Positions 6,420-64,000 of a stretch of DNA of 64,000 nucleotides are shown one piece after another. Under the pieces are notes generated by a model that had not been told where the DNA came from, ran no database searches, and saw only the letters and a list, made by a program, of their open reading frames with translations. The position numbers and the translations under genes were made by a program. Source of the DNA: Tubiluchus corallicola (Eukaryota > Priapulida > Priapulimorpha > Priapulimorphida > Tubiluchidae). Location of the stretch: the NCBI GenBank assembly GCA_030141605.1, contig JAQGDQ010000004.1:1585001-1649000 (forward strand), in the 5' to 3' direction. Numbering within the stretch: the stretch's first letter is position 1; each line of letters starts with the position of its first letter.

Positions 6420-7106
6420 TTCTTGAAGATACTAGTTACATATGCATTGAAGAGTCACAACTTTGTTTTGAGAGATAGTTTCTTGCTGGTTAGAATTGAT
6501 TTATTTTGGAAATCACCGTACATTGCCCGTTGATTCTCATTTTTGATATCATCTTCTGTGTCAAGTAGTGATCCCATATATTTGCAACGTTTCCAGGATT
6601 GGCCTCTATCCCGTGATCTGTAAAATTCTTCAGTTTTCGTGTTGTTAACTTTGAGATTTCTTTTTTCTAGTAATTTTGGAATACTTTAATAACAGTATTT
6701 GTTGCAAAATTTTGAAATGCTAATCCATCCAATGTAGTCAGCATATTGTTGGTCTATTAGGAATGGCTTGTAGGAAGCTGGTGCAGGATAAGTGTGATCA
6801 ACCATGTGGAAAGGGAGATTTTCTAGAGAAGCATCGTAACATCTTCGTTTTGGAGTGCATTGATAATTGGCTAGGCACCACGTAAAAAGCACTGGGCTGA
6901 GGCAGTTACCTTAAGGAACACCGATATTAGTTTTGAAAGTTCTTTTTATATTGTTGCATAGGTTTACGTGAAGCCCTGACATCTTTAAGTAGGATTATTA
7001 CCATCTGTAATTCCTCTGGTTCTGAAACTGATGTTAAATCGTCAGATAGTATTTCTCTATCAACAGTATCAAAAGCCTTGCTCATATCAAGCAGTAATAG
7101 AATAAT
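6420..7106 (-). pseudogene. Dead reverse-transcriptase fragment of a non-LTR retrotransposon
   Basis: Read on the minus strand from 7100 downward, it shows RT blocks in order: LLLLDMSKAFDTVDREIL (about 7040-7100), TNIGVP, a stop, then GNCLSPVLF (about 6890-6930), FLIDQQYADYIGWIS (about 6725-6770), and WKRCKYMGSLLDTEDDIK followed by LTSKKLSLKTKL (about 6460-6600). The catalytic box should read YADD, but here the second Asp is Tyr. In addition there is a stop in the GVPQG-type motif, a frameshift near 6975 and further breaks near 6685. The 5' part of the ORF and any endonuclease are missing. It is a non-functional relic, not a host gene. Confidence 0.85.
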
Positions 7107-7220
7107 TGAATATGAACTTGAAGTTATAGCTTTTTCGGCTAAGATTTTTGCAGAAATGATTAACTGTGTAGCGTTCCTTCCTTACAAGTTAGCAGTTGAC
7201 GTCAAACATATTGGTCTATC

Positions 7221-40088: not shown

Positions 40089-40467
<379 letters not shown>

Positions 40468-56982: not shown

Positions 56983-57472
56983 GTATGCTTTAAAATTAAA
57001 ATGTGGATTATTGGGTCTTTTTAATTAAATGTGAAGGCAATATATTCTTAATCCGTATAACAAAAAAGAAAATCCTGTATAGTAAACCTAATGTGCCATA
57101 TACCACTAGTTTTCAAAATATTTCTGATTTACGGCTCCTTTTTGCCGGAATGTGACAACAGTTATGTGACATTTATATTACTTGACACACATCTTACTCT
57201 GCATTGCCAATTTACATGTCTGTCATTCAACCAGAACATCCATGAGTAAACTGATGACTTGCTATGCAGCCATAATTTACAGCTTCAGTGATTTAAACTG
57301 TTACATATATTTTTGCAGATTTTGAAATGCCGATGTATAGGTGAAATATATTCTTTTATAAGTGGGTCACACTACTTCTGATGAGGGCTGAAAAACTACA
57401 GCTGTGAAAAAATAAAATAGAGTAATGTGTTTTACCGACTTCTGATTCTAGTTATGGTGTTTTGTTTTTTAG
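56983..57472 (+). other. Intron 3 (490 bp)
   Basis: It begins GTATGC and ends TTTTGTTTTTTAG. It is AT-rich with a good polypyrimidine run before the acceptor. No other feature is seen. Joining its flanks keeps phase 0. Confidence 0.8.
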
Positions 57473-60400
57473 CGGATACCAGTATGTACTCAGCAGAAAA
57501 ATCTGAATAGTCAGTCAAAGTTGAGAATGTCTCGTCTTGATGGAAGCTCCCTGTCCAGTTCATATGCATCACTGAGTGGGACTAGAGAGTCTGACAAGCT
57601 GCCACATCTTAGAGATACTTACAATAAAGAAGTTAGAACACGACTACCACATGGCTATGATTTCGCTGAACATCAGCGCCTCACTTTAGAGTATCAACAA
57701 CAATTATTAGATCTGCAGCAACAATATGTTCCATACATTCAACAAGCTGAATTTTTATTAGGGTCTACGGCAAACTCTTCAAGACATTCAGATAGTATTA
57801 CAGCTAAAAACAATGTGACATACGCACAAAGTTCTGTGCATTTTGATGGTGCCAGTCAGGCAGTGCCTTCTTTTCAGAATTCTTATTCTTCGTCTGGAAA
57901 CATAAATAAGGGTTATTTAAATGATTTGAAGACTGGCCACACCAAAGCCCATGCTCAAAGCAGTGAAATCACAGATGCTCCTTTAGATTTGTCTACAAAA
58001 AGCATGAGACGTACTCCTGATAGTACTGAAGATGATGATGTAATTGTCATTGAAGATAAAAGCAGTGATTCTGCCAAATTTTTGAAACGTGCTTTGGTAG
58101 GAAACAGCTACCTTGCCAAACATGAAACAAGTAAGAAAAGTTCAACCTATACCACTGTACCAGAAGATATCCAGAGGCTGCATCAACATTCACTTGAAGT
58201 CAGTGCAAAACTACAGAGTAATGAATTAGAAGACAGATACACTGAGCATTTATATGATAGTGCAATAGATTCTAAACGAGCTCGTTATACAGACTCTGCC
58301 AGTTCTAAATACGTGAACTATAGAAATCCAATAAGTAATGAAAAAGCAATTGAATATTCACAGTATGAACAGAAATCATGTAGACAGAATGCCAAACAAT
58401 TTTCACATCAAAAATATTCTGGAGATATTTCTTCCCATGTGCCAGCTGTTACGGAAAGCTTGTTAGAAAGTTTTCGGTATATTCAGCAATATGCTACAGC
58501 CGACAGAGGTCCAGTAATACATCGTTCTCCAGCACTTAGTAATGCATCCTCTCTTCCACTCAGAGGCGATCCTAATCACACTTTACCAAAAGGAAGCACT
58601 GTACTACCAAGTTTTCGGTATCCTCTATTACAATATGAATCTGTTGTGCCTGATGCGAGTAAAAAACAACATTTAGTACCTGACAGGTGTGTGCATGATT
58701 TCCAAGGTGGTTACAGTTACCCATTTGATTATTATAGTCTTTATGCCTCTTTGTATCCGGGCCAAATTTCCTTAGTTCCTGCTGCAGGCCATGGCACTTA
58801 TTCAAGAGTATCAGGAAATATTCCATACATACCTCTGCCAGCCAAAACACAAATGTTACCTAGCTCATCCCGTGGTACACATCCCTCACATGTGCAAGAT
58901 GATCGACAATCACAACAAGATATGTTGTTAAATAAGCTTGAAGCTCCCGGTAAAAATCTTATGGCTGCACCTCATTCAAATTTACCAACATTTGACATTC
59001 AGGCAAAGATTATACGTGATCAAGAAAAGTCATTGAAAGATTACGAACGCTCATTAATGAAATTGAAGAATGAACATGAAGCAAAGAATTCAGAGCAACT
59101 CTGTTCCTCATCAATGCTACCATTAACAAATCCCATCACTGAAAGCATGCCCATCCATGCTGACATTCCAGAAATAGTTTCAAGTAATAGCAATAGTAAT
59201 CTTCAAAATTTGAAATCCTTGCACCAGACACGAATACCTGTTAATGAATCTCATGTGCTGAATACTGGCCTATACAAATATAAACGACACCAAATTGCAA
59301 GATCAAAGTCACCTCGAAACAGCAAGCATTTGGGTTTTGAGACTCCTAAGTTACAAGATGACCATACAGGAGGAGGAGGTCCATTTAGTTTAAACAACAC
59401 TAAGCAAATGCATTCTAGTCGACCAGAGATTCTAGTAGCAAAAGAGCCTGAAGTAATGTCAGATGCAATATCAGCTGAATCAACAGACTTTGTTTATGTA
59501 TCAGCTAATGTTCCCAAAGACAATTTACCAGCAGTTGGTGAAAGGCGTCTCTTTCTACAACCTGATCTGCGAATAATTGAACGTGAACTTAGGAAACCTT
59601 ATCCTGAAAGCAAAGATGACTGTCCTTCAAAAAGTACCAATTGTGATACACTAGAAACTGTGAGTTCCAAAATAAAATTAACTCTGCCACAGAAAAATTC
59701 GCTTCCAGTTAAAAGGGAAAGAAGTCAACTTCTGCAATGTAATATTTCTAGAGCCAAAGACAGTTCTATCAATAAGGAAGTAATAGATATAGCAGAGTCG
59801 CCATCTGACCATCACACTGCTGATTTTCCCAAAAGAAGTGATAAAGAAAGAACTGAAACTGCAGTTAATTTTGCAGAGCAATGCCGACAAATTGCAAGAA
59901 AACTTGGATTGGCAAACAAGCTTGTGAAGACTTTTAATATAGGGAAGACATCTGACACTAATGTTAAAACAGAGCCTGTGCGACCCTTTCAGTCTTTCTC
60001 AGCTGAATCTGTGAGTAGAAAAATTCACAAACTTTTGTCTCAAGATGAGTGCTATAATCAGGAATCTGTAAAATCACAGTATGCCAGTATCAATAGAGAT
60101 TCTGTTAGTGATAAAGTGATAAAGCAAGAAAATGAAGATGAACTTAGTTTAGAGCAAACAGTCTGTGATATTAAAAGGAAATTGGCAAACAAAGAATCCA
60201 AGGAGAAACGGCATACACATGATAAGTCAGAAAGGCTTGGCCAGCAGCCTTTACATCCACATACAAAAATAACACTGAATCAATCTTTAACAAATAATTC
60301 AGTTTTACCATGGATAAAAAATGAAGATACAGTGCCTCCTGTTGATGTGTCTTGTAATAACAAGCTTGGCAAACTCGAGCAAAATGACAACTTTGAAAAT

Positions 60401-61216
60401 TTGTGCCAATCTGTACCAGTTGCTGTTTCAGAAAGGGGTGTCTCATCAGTATTGTCCTCTGCATCAAAGATGCAGCCACTGTCATCCGTTGAATCACCTT
60501 TCAAAATGCCAAAGTATGAAACCTATACGATTCCTTTATTACCCGCTAAAAAGGCGTGGACAAAATATAAATATGCAGAAGTAAACTTTACTAAACATAA
60601 TTCTGATTCTAGTCATTGTGCCAGAATGTCTCCATCTGTTGAAGAACAGAAAACGAACAGAAAATATGCGTTTGAGAATAGTAATGAGGTAAAACGTGCT
60701 GACAGCAAACTTTCTTTGGATTCATATTCATCATCTGAAATAAAGGATGATTCACATTCAAAAGGTAATGAATTTACTAAGAAAATGGAGATTAACTCGT
60801 GTAATGATGCGAGTCAACCACCATCTTCTACAAGTGACCTGCCAGTAACTTCACAGTCCAACCAAACTTCAAGTTTCGTTGCTTCAAAGAATATGCGACA
60901 TAATTTTATAAAATCTGGTCAATACCAGATACCTTCAAAATGTCATCTGCCTTCTTCAAGTGCACTTAATAGAAAAACTGAGAGTGTTGCAAGATGTGCT
61001 AAAAAACCTGAAGAATTAAAAATACAGAGAATAAAAAACTGCTTTTATGAAAAGCCTCTTTCCAGTAATGGACAAAATCGAAGAACGAATACGCATAAGG
61101 AAACGAAACAAGCTGCCTTCATTTCAAATTCCTCATCTAAAAAAAGTGGAAAAGTAAAAAACAGTGGAATTACATTACGCAAACTGCACTTTAGAACAAC
61201 TAGTACGGAAAAAGTA
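57473..61216 (+). CDS. Coding exon 4: giant exon with CtBP-docking, SUMO and coiled-coil-like motifs
   Basis: The acceptor is GTTTTGTTTTTTAG, and 1,248 codons are open in one frame, far beyond chance. In joined-protein numbering they are residues 87-1334. Visible are a Gln-rich helical stretch (about 153-183), TDAPLDLSTK (PxDLS type, 256-260), the acidic motif DDDVIVIEDKSSDS (276-281), a Lys/Glu helix (about 593-628), VKRE (832), VIDIAESPSD (856), VKTE (917), IKQE (969) and IKNE (1034). Ser/Asn-rich linkers fill the rest, indicating intrinsic disorder. No enzyme or zinc-finger pattern is present. The exon ends AAAGTA before GTAAGT, and the next exon continues in phase. Without splicing the frame stops at 61235-61237. 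The first ATG inside the exon is not taken as the start, because the frame is open to the acceptor and exon 3 joins it. Confidence 0.95.
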
Positions 61217-63216
61217 GTAAGTAAAAATTATTACTAAGCAGTAAATATTAGTGTAAAATGAAATTTTATAAACAAATATTTAAGTTGGTAATTGTAAACT
61301 GTGTACAAGGATAAAGCATATTTTTTCATTATTATTTTAAACCGATAATAATTCAATGGAATTTTATTGTCTGTTGTTCCAAATTTTTGTTTGAAACATT
61401 TCTGTCATTAATCATGATTTATGCACCGTTGTTTGACTCTTTTAAAACTAGTATACCTGTATTCCCTTCCAACAAATCAAACAGACCCAACAAATCATTT
61501 ATTAACTTCTTTTACAGACTGGAAGAAATGAGATTCTGAAACAATGCCATCAGAGAAAAGTATTTAATCAAAACACAGCAAAGCAACATGCTGTTTTGCG
61601 CAAAAACAGTTTTGCTTACAAAAAGGTATAAATAATTAGTATTACAATGTGATGGTGAAAATGAAATTCAATGGGTTTTTTAAAATTCTATTTGATAATC
61701 AAGGAATTTCTGCATCACCTAATCAGGATTGTAGTACTTAATCAGGAATCAAATAGAAACTGCAGCTATAGTCAATAGTGAGCATGTTACTATTGATTAT
61801 ACTCAGTGTCTAATATTTTGAGCCAGCTAGATCACTTATAAGCCAACACACAGTGAGCAGCTTTGCCACAGAGAATAATTGATGACATAAAAAAGCAATA
61901 GTGTGCACTTTCTATTCTTGGTCTAAACGTGTCGAAACCGAGCTTAAATATACATCATCAGCAGTTAAATTCTGAAGGAGGAAAAACTGAGAACCAGGAT
62001 TCCAATTCAGATCTTGTGGTGTCAGACCATTTGAACTTACTAGAAAGCTATCAGTCCAAATGGCCAAGACAGGTCTGAATTCTCAAACTAGTCTGTATAC
62101 ACTCAGTCAGAACCGCCTATCTGTAGTAGCCAGAAATAGTTCTGCTAAACTTTATTAAAAGGACTATCCAACCGTCAACGGGGACTTTTCACTTCTAGTT
62201 CCTTCTACTTATCTTAATATGCAATCTAAAGCATCAAGACAGTTTGAGACACATTATTTGATGTAGGAGCTGTTAGGAATGGCTAAACACTTGAGCCCTA
62301 GCTAGTGAAATGATATGTATATATAAACCATATAGCACCACAATCAATATAGGAGTACTAGATCCCGAAATTAAAGTTAATGTAAGATTCCATGTGTGCG
62401 TAATGTGCATTGACTGTTTCCATTTGTCCTTGAATGCTATTTGTATTAACAAAGCTGACAGTGCTTTCCAACATTTTTAATTGCTGTTCGTGAAAATTAG
62501 CAGAAATAATTTTTGAAAGCCATGTTTCGAAATTTCAGTGCAACAGTGATCAAGAAATAATTACATTGATGGTATTAGCTTATCGTTGTACTATGAGATG
62601 GAAGAATTCAAAAGAAAGCAAATGTTTTGAGTGCATTGCATGGGAGAAGCAATACTGCATGTATGACTGCTTAGTGGAGGAACTGCAACTAGATGCAGAA
62701 TAACAATTATGAGCTTCTTCCACTTCTCAAAAACTCTAATGGAAGAAATATTACTGCATATTGGTGGTCCTGAAGTGACCAAAACTCAGCTGATCAGGAA
62801 TCAAATCAGCGAAAATGGTCACCAGAAACTGGAAAAGTCCCTAAATCACTTGAGCAATAGCAGTTTCTCGTGTGTGTGTTGCTGCGTAATGTGTATTCGG
62901 ACAGTAGCAATCACATTGACAATAGCAATACGGATCACACTTAATGCACTGCACATTACGTACACATGGAAACACTTCCACGTGTTTAAATGCAAATTAT
63001 TGTATACATACTAGGCTTCACACATCACGCTTTACATGTTCATAGATTCCTACCTTTAAACTGTGATAATGTATTTTTTGCATCTATTTGCAGCAAGGTG
63101 TAAGTGATAACAAAGTTATATAAACTGACTGCAGTTTAAATAAAGCTAAAGTGAGTCATTTTTAACAGTTTGGAAATACTTGTAAAAGCCCCACTCTTCT
63201 CTTTGCACGTTTTCAG
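61217..63216 (+). other. Intron 4 (2.0 kb)
   Basis: It begins GTAAGT and ends GTTTTCAG. If retained, the exon-4 frame adds six residues (VSKNYY) and stops at 61235-61237, so a truncated protein lacking exons 5-6 is possible. One AATAAA lies near 63136. Short frames inside (for example 62709-63014) show no recognisable protein. No repeat stands out. Confidence 0.75.
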
Positions 63217-63334
63217 ACTGAAGCATTAAAAAGACGAGCAGCAGGACTAGGGCTTAGGCATCAAACAAACAACCAGGCACGGTTTGTGGATTTTCAACCA
63301 GAAATATTAGAATCTCGTACTCGAGCCCAGGCTG
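63217..63334 (+). CDS. Coding exon 5: basic segment
   Basis: The acceptor is CACGTTTTCAG and the donor GCTG followed by GTGAGA. It codes 39 codons plus one base, residues 1335-1373 and part of 1374, starting TEALKRRAAGLGLRHQTNN and continuing into a stretch with FVDFQPEILESRTRAQA. The regular charge pattern, without long Ser/Asn runs, looks more conserved than exon 4. Its in-phase fit with exon 4 is the main evidence that the GTAAGT at 61217 is a real donor. Family not recognised. Confidence 0.85.
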
Positions 63335-63616
63335 GTGAGATTATCTTTTCTGTCATTCTTAGTACATGATGCTTTATAAGCTCAGAGCTTACTGTTAACT
63401 GTACCTAATTAGATTATTTCTTAAATACATTTAGCAATATTTCCTTTTCCTTCTATTTTGGCTAGAAAAAATCCACTTAGACAAATTCTACTGAGTGGAT
63501 TTTACATTTTCATCCGTGTTTTTTGCTCTGTCAAAGAATTAGCATTGCTAATTTGATGAGTTTTTGCTCTTGACATTTTTGCTACAAGTTTAAATCTATG
63601 TTTGTGTCTTTTCCAG
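63335..63616 (+). other. Intron 5 (282 bp)
   Basis: It begins GTGAGA and ends TCTTTTCCAG, in phase 1. No internal feature is seen. Confidence 0.8.
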
Positions 63617-64000
63617 CTAGGAAAAAAAATGTTAGTCGACGATCATCATATAACAGGAATGCTGCTTATGAAAAAGCTCTTCAAAAGGATGAACAGCGTT
63701 TAAGTAGCCGTCGGGTGTCCCAACGAATCCAAATTCCAGAAAGCAAGCCAGCAGTTTGTGATGGTGAAGAGACGGATGTCTACGAGTATACTAGTGATGG
63801 TAGCGACAGTGCACCCCCGCCATATTCACCAAATCGCCATCGATTGTTGATGCGCATAAAGTTAAACTCTGCAAAAAAAGAACAAGAAAAGAGGCCAATC
63901 CGTCGCAAATGGGCGCCGCGCAAGTATCGTCGTTTACGTAAAGCAGATGATTCTTCGGATGGTGAAGAACCATTTATGATGCCAACTTTAGTTAGAACTG
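63617..64000 (+). CDS. Coding exon 6 (partial, runs off the window): highly basic region with PPPY motif
   Basis: The acceptor is TGTGTCTTTTCCAG. The first two bases complete an Ala codon with the last base of exon 5, and the frame stays open for 127 codons to the window edge. In order it shows an Arg/Lys/Ser-rich part (ARKKNVSRRSSYNRN), a helical charged part, an acidic Tyr/Asp part, SAPPPYSPN with a PPxY motif (about 1440-1443; PPxY binds WW domains), a strongly basic cluster (RRKWAPRKYRRLRK) and an acidic DDSSDGEE patch typical of casein-kinase-2 targets. The basic cluster suits nuclear import or nucleic-acid contact. No stop or donor is seen before the end. Confidence 0.85.

Follow-up and report, generated by a model that had tools for sequence, protein, structure and literature searches.

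The window, a stretch of 64,000 nucleotides from Tubiluchus corallicola, carries in its last 6.5 kb, on the plus strand, part of a gene whose large N-terminal exon, hereafter exon A, spans positions 57473..61216. This exon is delimited by an open frame and by splice signals: the frame runs over 57473-61237 in the ORF scan, an acceptor AG lies at 57471-57472 and a GTAAGT donor at 61217, enclosing 1248 codons with phase 0 at both ends, and ATG 57527 could be the start codon. A search for upstream coding exons, relying on a codon score and a few sequence patterns, identified none. The same score served in the hunt for further exons; as it was trained on exon A itself, the top rank it gives to this exon (292.7, the next being 22.5) was accorded zero weight. 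The stretch encoded by exon A is probably disordered, judging from composition only (14.0% serine, 0.2% tryptophan). Exon A has no match in Pfam or the PDB, and a search for relatives in viral and bacterial sequence collections confirmed none. Elsewhere in the window, a CT array at 40091-40466 (189.5 copies, 98% matches) yields false SLSLSL and ERERER open frames, and a weak reverse-transcriptase fragment, DMSKAFDTVDREIL, lies at 6942-7139 on the minus strand (RVT_1, E 0.0014; its 18.9 bits fall short of the cut-off, 29.6), perhaps as the remnant of a non-LTR element.

The protein encoded by exon A harbors several short motifs, all given here with their plus-strand positions. A PxDLS sequence, of the CtBP-docking type, is present as PLDLSTK at 57980..58000 (exon A residue 170) and makes a candidate docking motif. 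There are two SUMO-interaction-like motifs, VIVIED within EDDDVIVIEDKSSD at 58040..58057 and VIDIAE followed by SPSD at 59780..59797, as well as four matches to the SUMO acceptor consensus: VKRE at 59708..59719, which overlaps a basic KRER, VKTE at 59963..59974, IKQE at 60119..60130, followed by the acidic tail NEDE, and IKNE at 60314..60325. The first-pass annotation had described an exon combining a PxDLS motif, two hydrophobic-acidic motifs and four [VI]KxE sites at 57473-61216; this range agrees with exon A to the base, and every one of the motifs lies where it had been placed.

The chance expectation of these motifs was estimated from 5000 shuffles of the 1248 residues of exon A. The [VI]KxE sites, four observed against 0.58 expected, gave P 0.0034, and PxDLS, one observed against 0.046 expected, gave P 0.045. 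Hydrophobic quartets, two observed against 1.8 expected, gave P 0.52; with an acidic residue required close behind, 0.69 were expected (P 0.15), and a stricter definition of the patch with acidic or serine flanks gave P 0.037-0.068. Shuffling in blocks of 60 or 150 residues left this picture unchanged. At none of the three block sizes did any of the 5000 shuffles reach all three counts jointly, a figure that overstates the case, as the choice of motif classes and of the strict definition was made post hoc on the same sequence. Against shuffles, then, [VI]KxE alone is clearly enriched, while PxDLS and the hydrophobic patches are singly weak. These figures bear on whether the motifs matter at all. 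That the gene belongs to the BCOR family, as argued below, and yet carries PLDLS and [VI]KxE sites devoid of function seems to us less likely than not. In favor of such a reading are the weak counts of PxDLS (P about 0.04) and of the hydrophobic patches (P from 0.04 to 0.5), and the fact that KxE is common in exon A, with 13 sites; it has to contend with the four [VI]KxE sites, whose P stays at 0.003-0.005 across tests, and with the known relatives. Among the proteins listed as containing PLDLS is human BCOR, in a sequence context unlike that of EVI1/MECOM (PMC11095456, the available portion of which gives no motif position), and in BCORL1 the PXDLS motif is functional, CtBP being bound via residues 621-627, ahead of the ankyrin repeats (1455) and the PUFD (1594), according to the available part of PMC8005212 and, for PXDLS binding, also that of PMC3671672.

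The next 50 kb past the window were scanned on the plus strand of the same assembly (343.5 Mb, 2344 contigs); coordinates beyond 64000 are given on the window scale, that is, as the position in the first downstream piece (L001) plus 64000. The resulting gene model has eight exons in a single frame and encodes 1761 residues; its seven introns are all GT-AG, and there is one stop, at 68647. Exon A is followed by exon A2 (63217..63334, 118 bases, entered in phase 0 and left in phase 1), by exon B (63617..64065, within which the window ends at 64000), by exons C, D and E (64517-64684, 64929-65095 and 65499-65644), which encode ankyrin repeats, and by exons F and G (67190-67439 and 68404-68647), which encode a PUFD-like end closed by a TAG stop, all on the plus strand. 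The frame of exon A is thus extendable via A2 and B into BCOR-type ankyrin repeats and a divergent PUFD-like C terminus. Exon B has no match in Pfam and nothing useful in the PDB, where two rows at E 0.42 were taken as chance. Farther downstream on the same strand, there is a LIM-domain exon at L005:2959-3351 (106959-107351 on the window scale; Pfam LIM, E 5.3e-9), and two further open stretches, L003:1702-1971 and L005:2245-2523, have no Pfam match but by reading resemble an LMO4-type LIM-only gene.

Exon A2, between exons A and B, is the least certain part of the model. Without it, the A-B junction is out of frame, and donor 61221, considered for a direct A-B junction, was dropped in favor of donor 61217 followed by A2, which links the two in frame. 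Exon A2 is a putative exon, the sole candidate above thresholds in one splice-and-frame scan of 61240-63600. The A-to-B intron may have other solutions, because the acceptor threshold of that scan (2) is too strict for two of the seven listed acceptors, those of exons C and E. One could suppose that two genes are present, exon A closing an unrelated nuclear protein, with A2 or B as the first exon of the BCOR gene. Exon A would suit this view in having no Pfam or PDB match and in that reading through its donor leads within 21 bases to a stop, at 61235-61237, which would allow it to be a last exon; moreover, the connection to B requires A2, which comes from a scan that would miss two of the listed acceptors. 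We nevertheless consider two genes very improbable. A usable donor sits ahead of that stop, its score of 6.2 falling among those of the other listed donors, from B to F (4.0-8.1). Past the frame end at 61237, the first AATAAA appears only at 63139, 1.9 kb on, although the commoner variant ATTAAA does occur at 62154 and 62370; past the gene stop at 68647, ATTAAA at 68909 and AATAAA at 69126 both lie within 0.5 kb. Exons A and A2 are on the same strand, 2.0 kb apart, and A2 restores the frame exactly. Finally, BCORL1 has its parts in the same order, from PxDLS through ankyrin repeats to PUFD (here a PUFD-like end), and human BCOR likewise has PLDLS, as far as the portions of the sources cited above go. 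We thus retain a single gene running from exon A to exon G.

The ankyrin region was assigned to a family as follows. Exons C-E match Ank_2 in Pfam at E 2.1e-34 (118.3 bits, cut-off 27.3). Ankyrin repeats are common, and therefore family specificity was tested by identity comparisons. Fox BCOR-family peptides are printed in Appendix A of PMC6627929, the available part of which gives the BCORY2 peptide as predicted; this predicted peptide is identical to the ankyrin region at 89 of 130 residues (68.5%), including an unbroken run of 20. A generic designed ankyrin, in approximate sequence, reaches 49 of 107 (45.8%). Within the Tubiluchus genome itself, the ankyrin query found at least 128 matches with 150 of 436 candidates scored, two of which are the present locus (100% and 98%); the remaining ones among those scored are 29-50% identical, the best at 57.1 bits, and the one at 50% spans 48 residues. 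Fox BCORY2 is thus closer to the query than any other scored ankyrin of the animal's own genome, a pattern that would be expected of an orthologue. A phmmer search of the ankyrin exons against the PDB returned designed and other long ankyrin proteins among the best 60 matches and did not discriminate the family. By the measure of their sequence, the ankyrin repeats in the C-terminal part are of the BCOR type. That they might instead belong to an ankyrin protein of another family, lying by chance near a disordered exon, is hardly credible: however abundant such repeats are, with the at least 128 matches in this genome, and however weak the PUFD match, their identity to a mammalian BCOR-family peptide exceeds that of any other scored ankyrin of the genome, and a PUFD-like end follows in the correct place. 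Of the other ankyrin matches, many fall within open frames 500-1800 residues long, which suggests that the Tubiluchus genome has a large family of intron-poor ankyrin genes.

The C terminus was harder to place. The Pfam PUFD model did not match exons F and G; over the whole genome it gave 0 matches at E 0.001 and, with the limit relaxed to E 10, six weak ones, all of them away from the BCOR-family locus, and in 14 control genomes it gave none at either threshold. A phmmer search of F+G against the PDB found no matches, and the search with exon G by itself brought up a yeast protein in two weak rows, at E 0.063 and E 0.14, which we attribute to chance. The pairwise score of F+G against the human BCOR PUFD (4hpl_A) was equaled by 12 of 2000 shuffles and that against BCORL1 by 14 of 2000, and hhalign of F+G with PUFD returned a probability of 16.8%. 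We also built a PUFD model out of three sequences, those of human BCOR, BCORL1 and fox BCORY2. Among 3001 sequences, 3000 of them shuffles and 2714 reported, F+G ranked first at 9.5 bits (E 0.16), the runner-up having 7.4, and aligned in order to residues 32-119 of the model, while exon B, taken as a control, did not match it. AlphaFold, run on the single sequence of exon G, gave a model with a mean pLDDT of 45.8, which was unusable and was dropped. We read F+G as a divergent PUFD, whose match to the BCOR PUFD is weak.

Based on this model, we conclude with high confidence that exon A is the long N-terminal half of an animal BCOR/BCORL1-family corepressor gene. The link of exon A to BCOR runs through the gene model. 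We infer an invertebrate animal from the single such locus found and from the strong divergence of the PUFD. The suggestion that the motif-rich exon belongs to a corepressor scaffold is supported by the BCOR/BCORL1-type ankyrin repeats downstream; the idea of a little-described corepressor of unrecognised family is not supported, the family being BCOR/BCORL1. It had also been proposed that ankyrin or PUFD-type domains beyond 64000 would favor BCOR; the outcome favors BCOR, with ankyrin exons lying 517-1644 bases past the end, followed by a divergent PUFD-like end that Pfam PUFD misses. The gene adds a member to the known BCOR/BCORL1 family of Polycomb partner proteins and does not represent a novel type of corepressor.

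Several features can be compared with known members. In mammalian BCOR and BCORL1, the long N-terminal region lies largely in one big exon, and in the Tubiluchus model it is likewise mostly one big exon (1248 of 1761 residues). Pfam scans of exon A, of the part of B inside the window, of B-G and of A2-C did not name the BCOR non-ankyrin family, presumably PF15808; to our knowledge, a match to PF15808 is not a defining feature of invertebrate BCOR members. Drosophila has a BCOR too, which we take to be CG14073. With BCORL1, as described in the available text of PMC8005212, the Tubiluchus protein shares the order of parts, N-terminal PXDLS, ankyrin repeats and a C-terminal end that is PUFD in BCORL1 and PUFD-like in Tubiluchus; that PUFD-like end is too divergent for Pfam, and the N-terminal halves are compared by order. 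BCOR and BCORY resemble it in the ankyrin region, in a PUFD-like end placed in order and, for human BCOR in the cited portion, in PLDLS, and differ from it in that PUFD is weak in the Tubiluchus gene. The Drosophila protein is alike in being an invertebrate BCOR, reported in a RING1-Kdm2 complex and with RYBP, SkpA, Kdm2 and Siesta in the available part of PMC12965321. In that of PMC11209466, BCORL1 is merely cited.

From the known family, a mechanism can be proposed. The C terminus would join PCGF-RING1 and KDM2 in PRC1.1, a variant Polycomb complex. Sequence-specific repressors and other corepressors would dock on the N-terminal half, a probably disordered arm. RAWUL domains occur at three places in the same genome, one of them above the cut-off (L014, 64.3 bits), and L016 scores like L015; by reading, we take L014 to be RING1-like and L015 to be PCGF-like. 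Within the family, the BCORL1 PUFD binds PCGF1 and PCGF3 (PMC8005212) and the interface of PCGF1 with BCOR controls the binding of KDM2B (PMC8594731), as stated in the parts of these papers available. Within the arm, PLDLSTK may dock CtBP, like the PXDLS of human BCORL1, the lysines of the [VI]KxE consensus matches may serve as SUMO acceptors, and the VIVIED and VIDIAE patches may bind SUMO on partners, favoring assembly of a repressive complex. The CtBP and SUMO functions of exon A are thus predicted by analogy.

A gene that sequence reading had left unnamed is now named; it looked like an orphan because its recognisable domains fall past the end of the window. We tentatively propose, as a possibility somewhat short of an even chance, that CtBP docking via PLDLS is ancestral to the BCOR/BCORL1 family, predating the vertebrate pair, and that, where an animal has a single such gene, SUMO acceptors and SUMO-interaction motifs are added on the same disordered arm, such that one protein would tie together CtBP, SUMO-dependent assembly and Kdm2-RING1 Polycomb. 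Our literature search, which covered few subscription papers, listed no publication whose title treats the conservation of PLDLS or of SUMO sites across invertebrate BCORs. If PLDLS is conserved in these proteins, the link of the family to CtBP would be older than the split between vertebrate BCOR and BCORL1.
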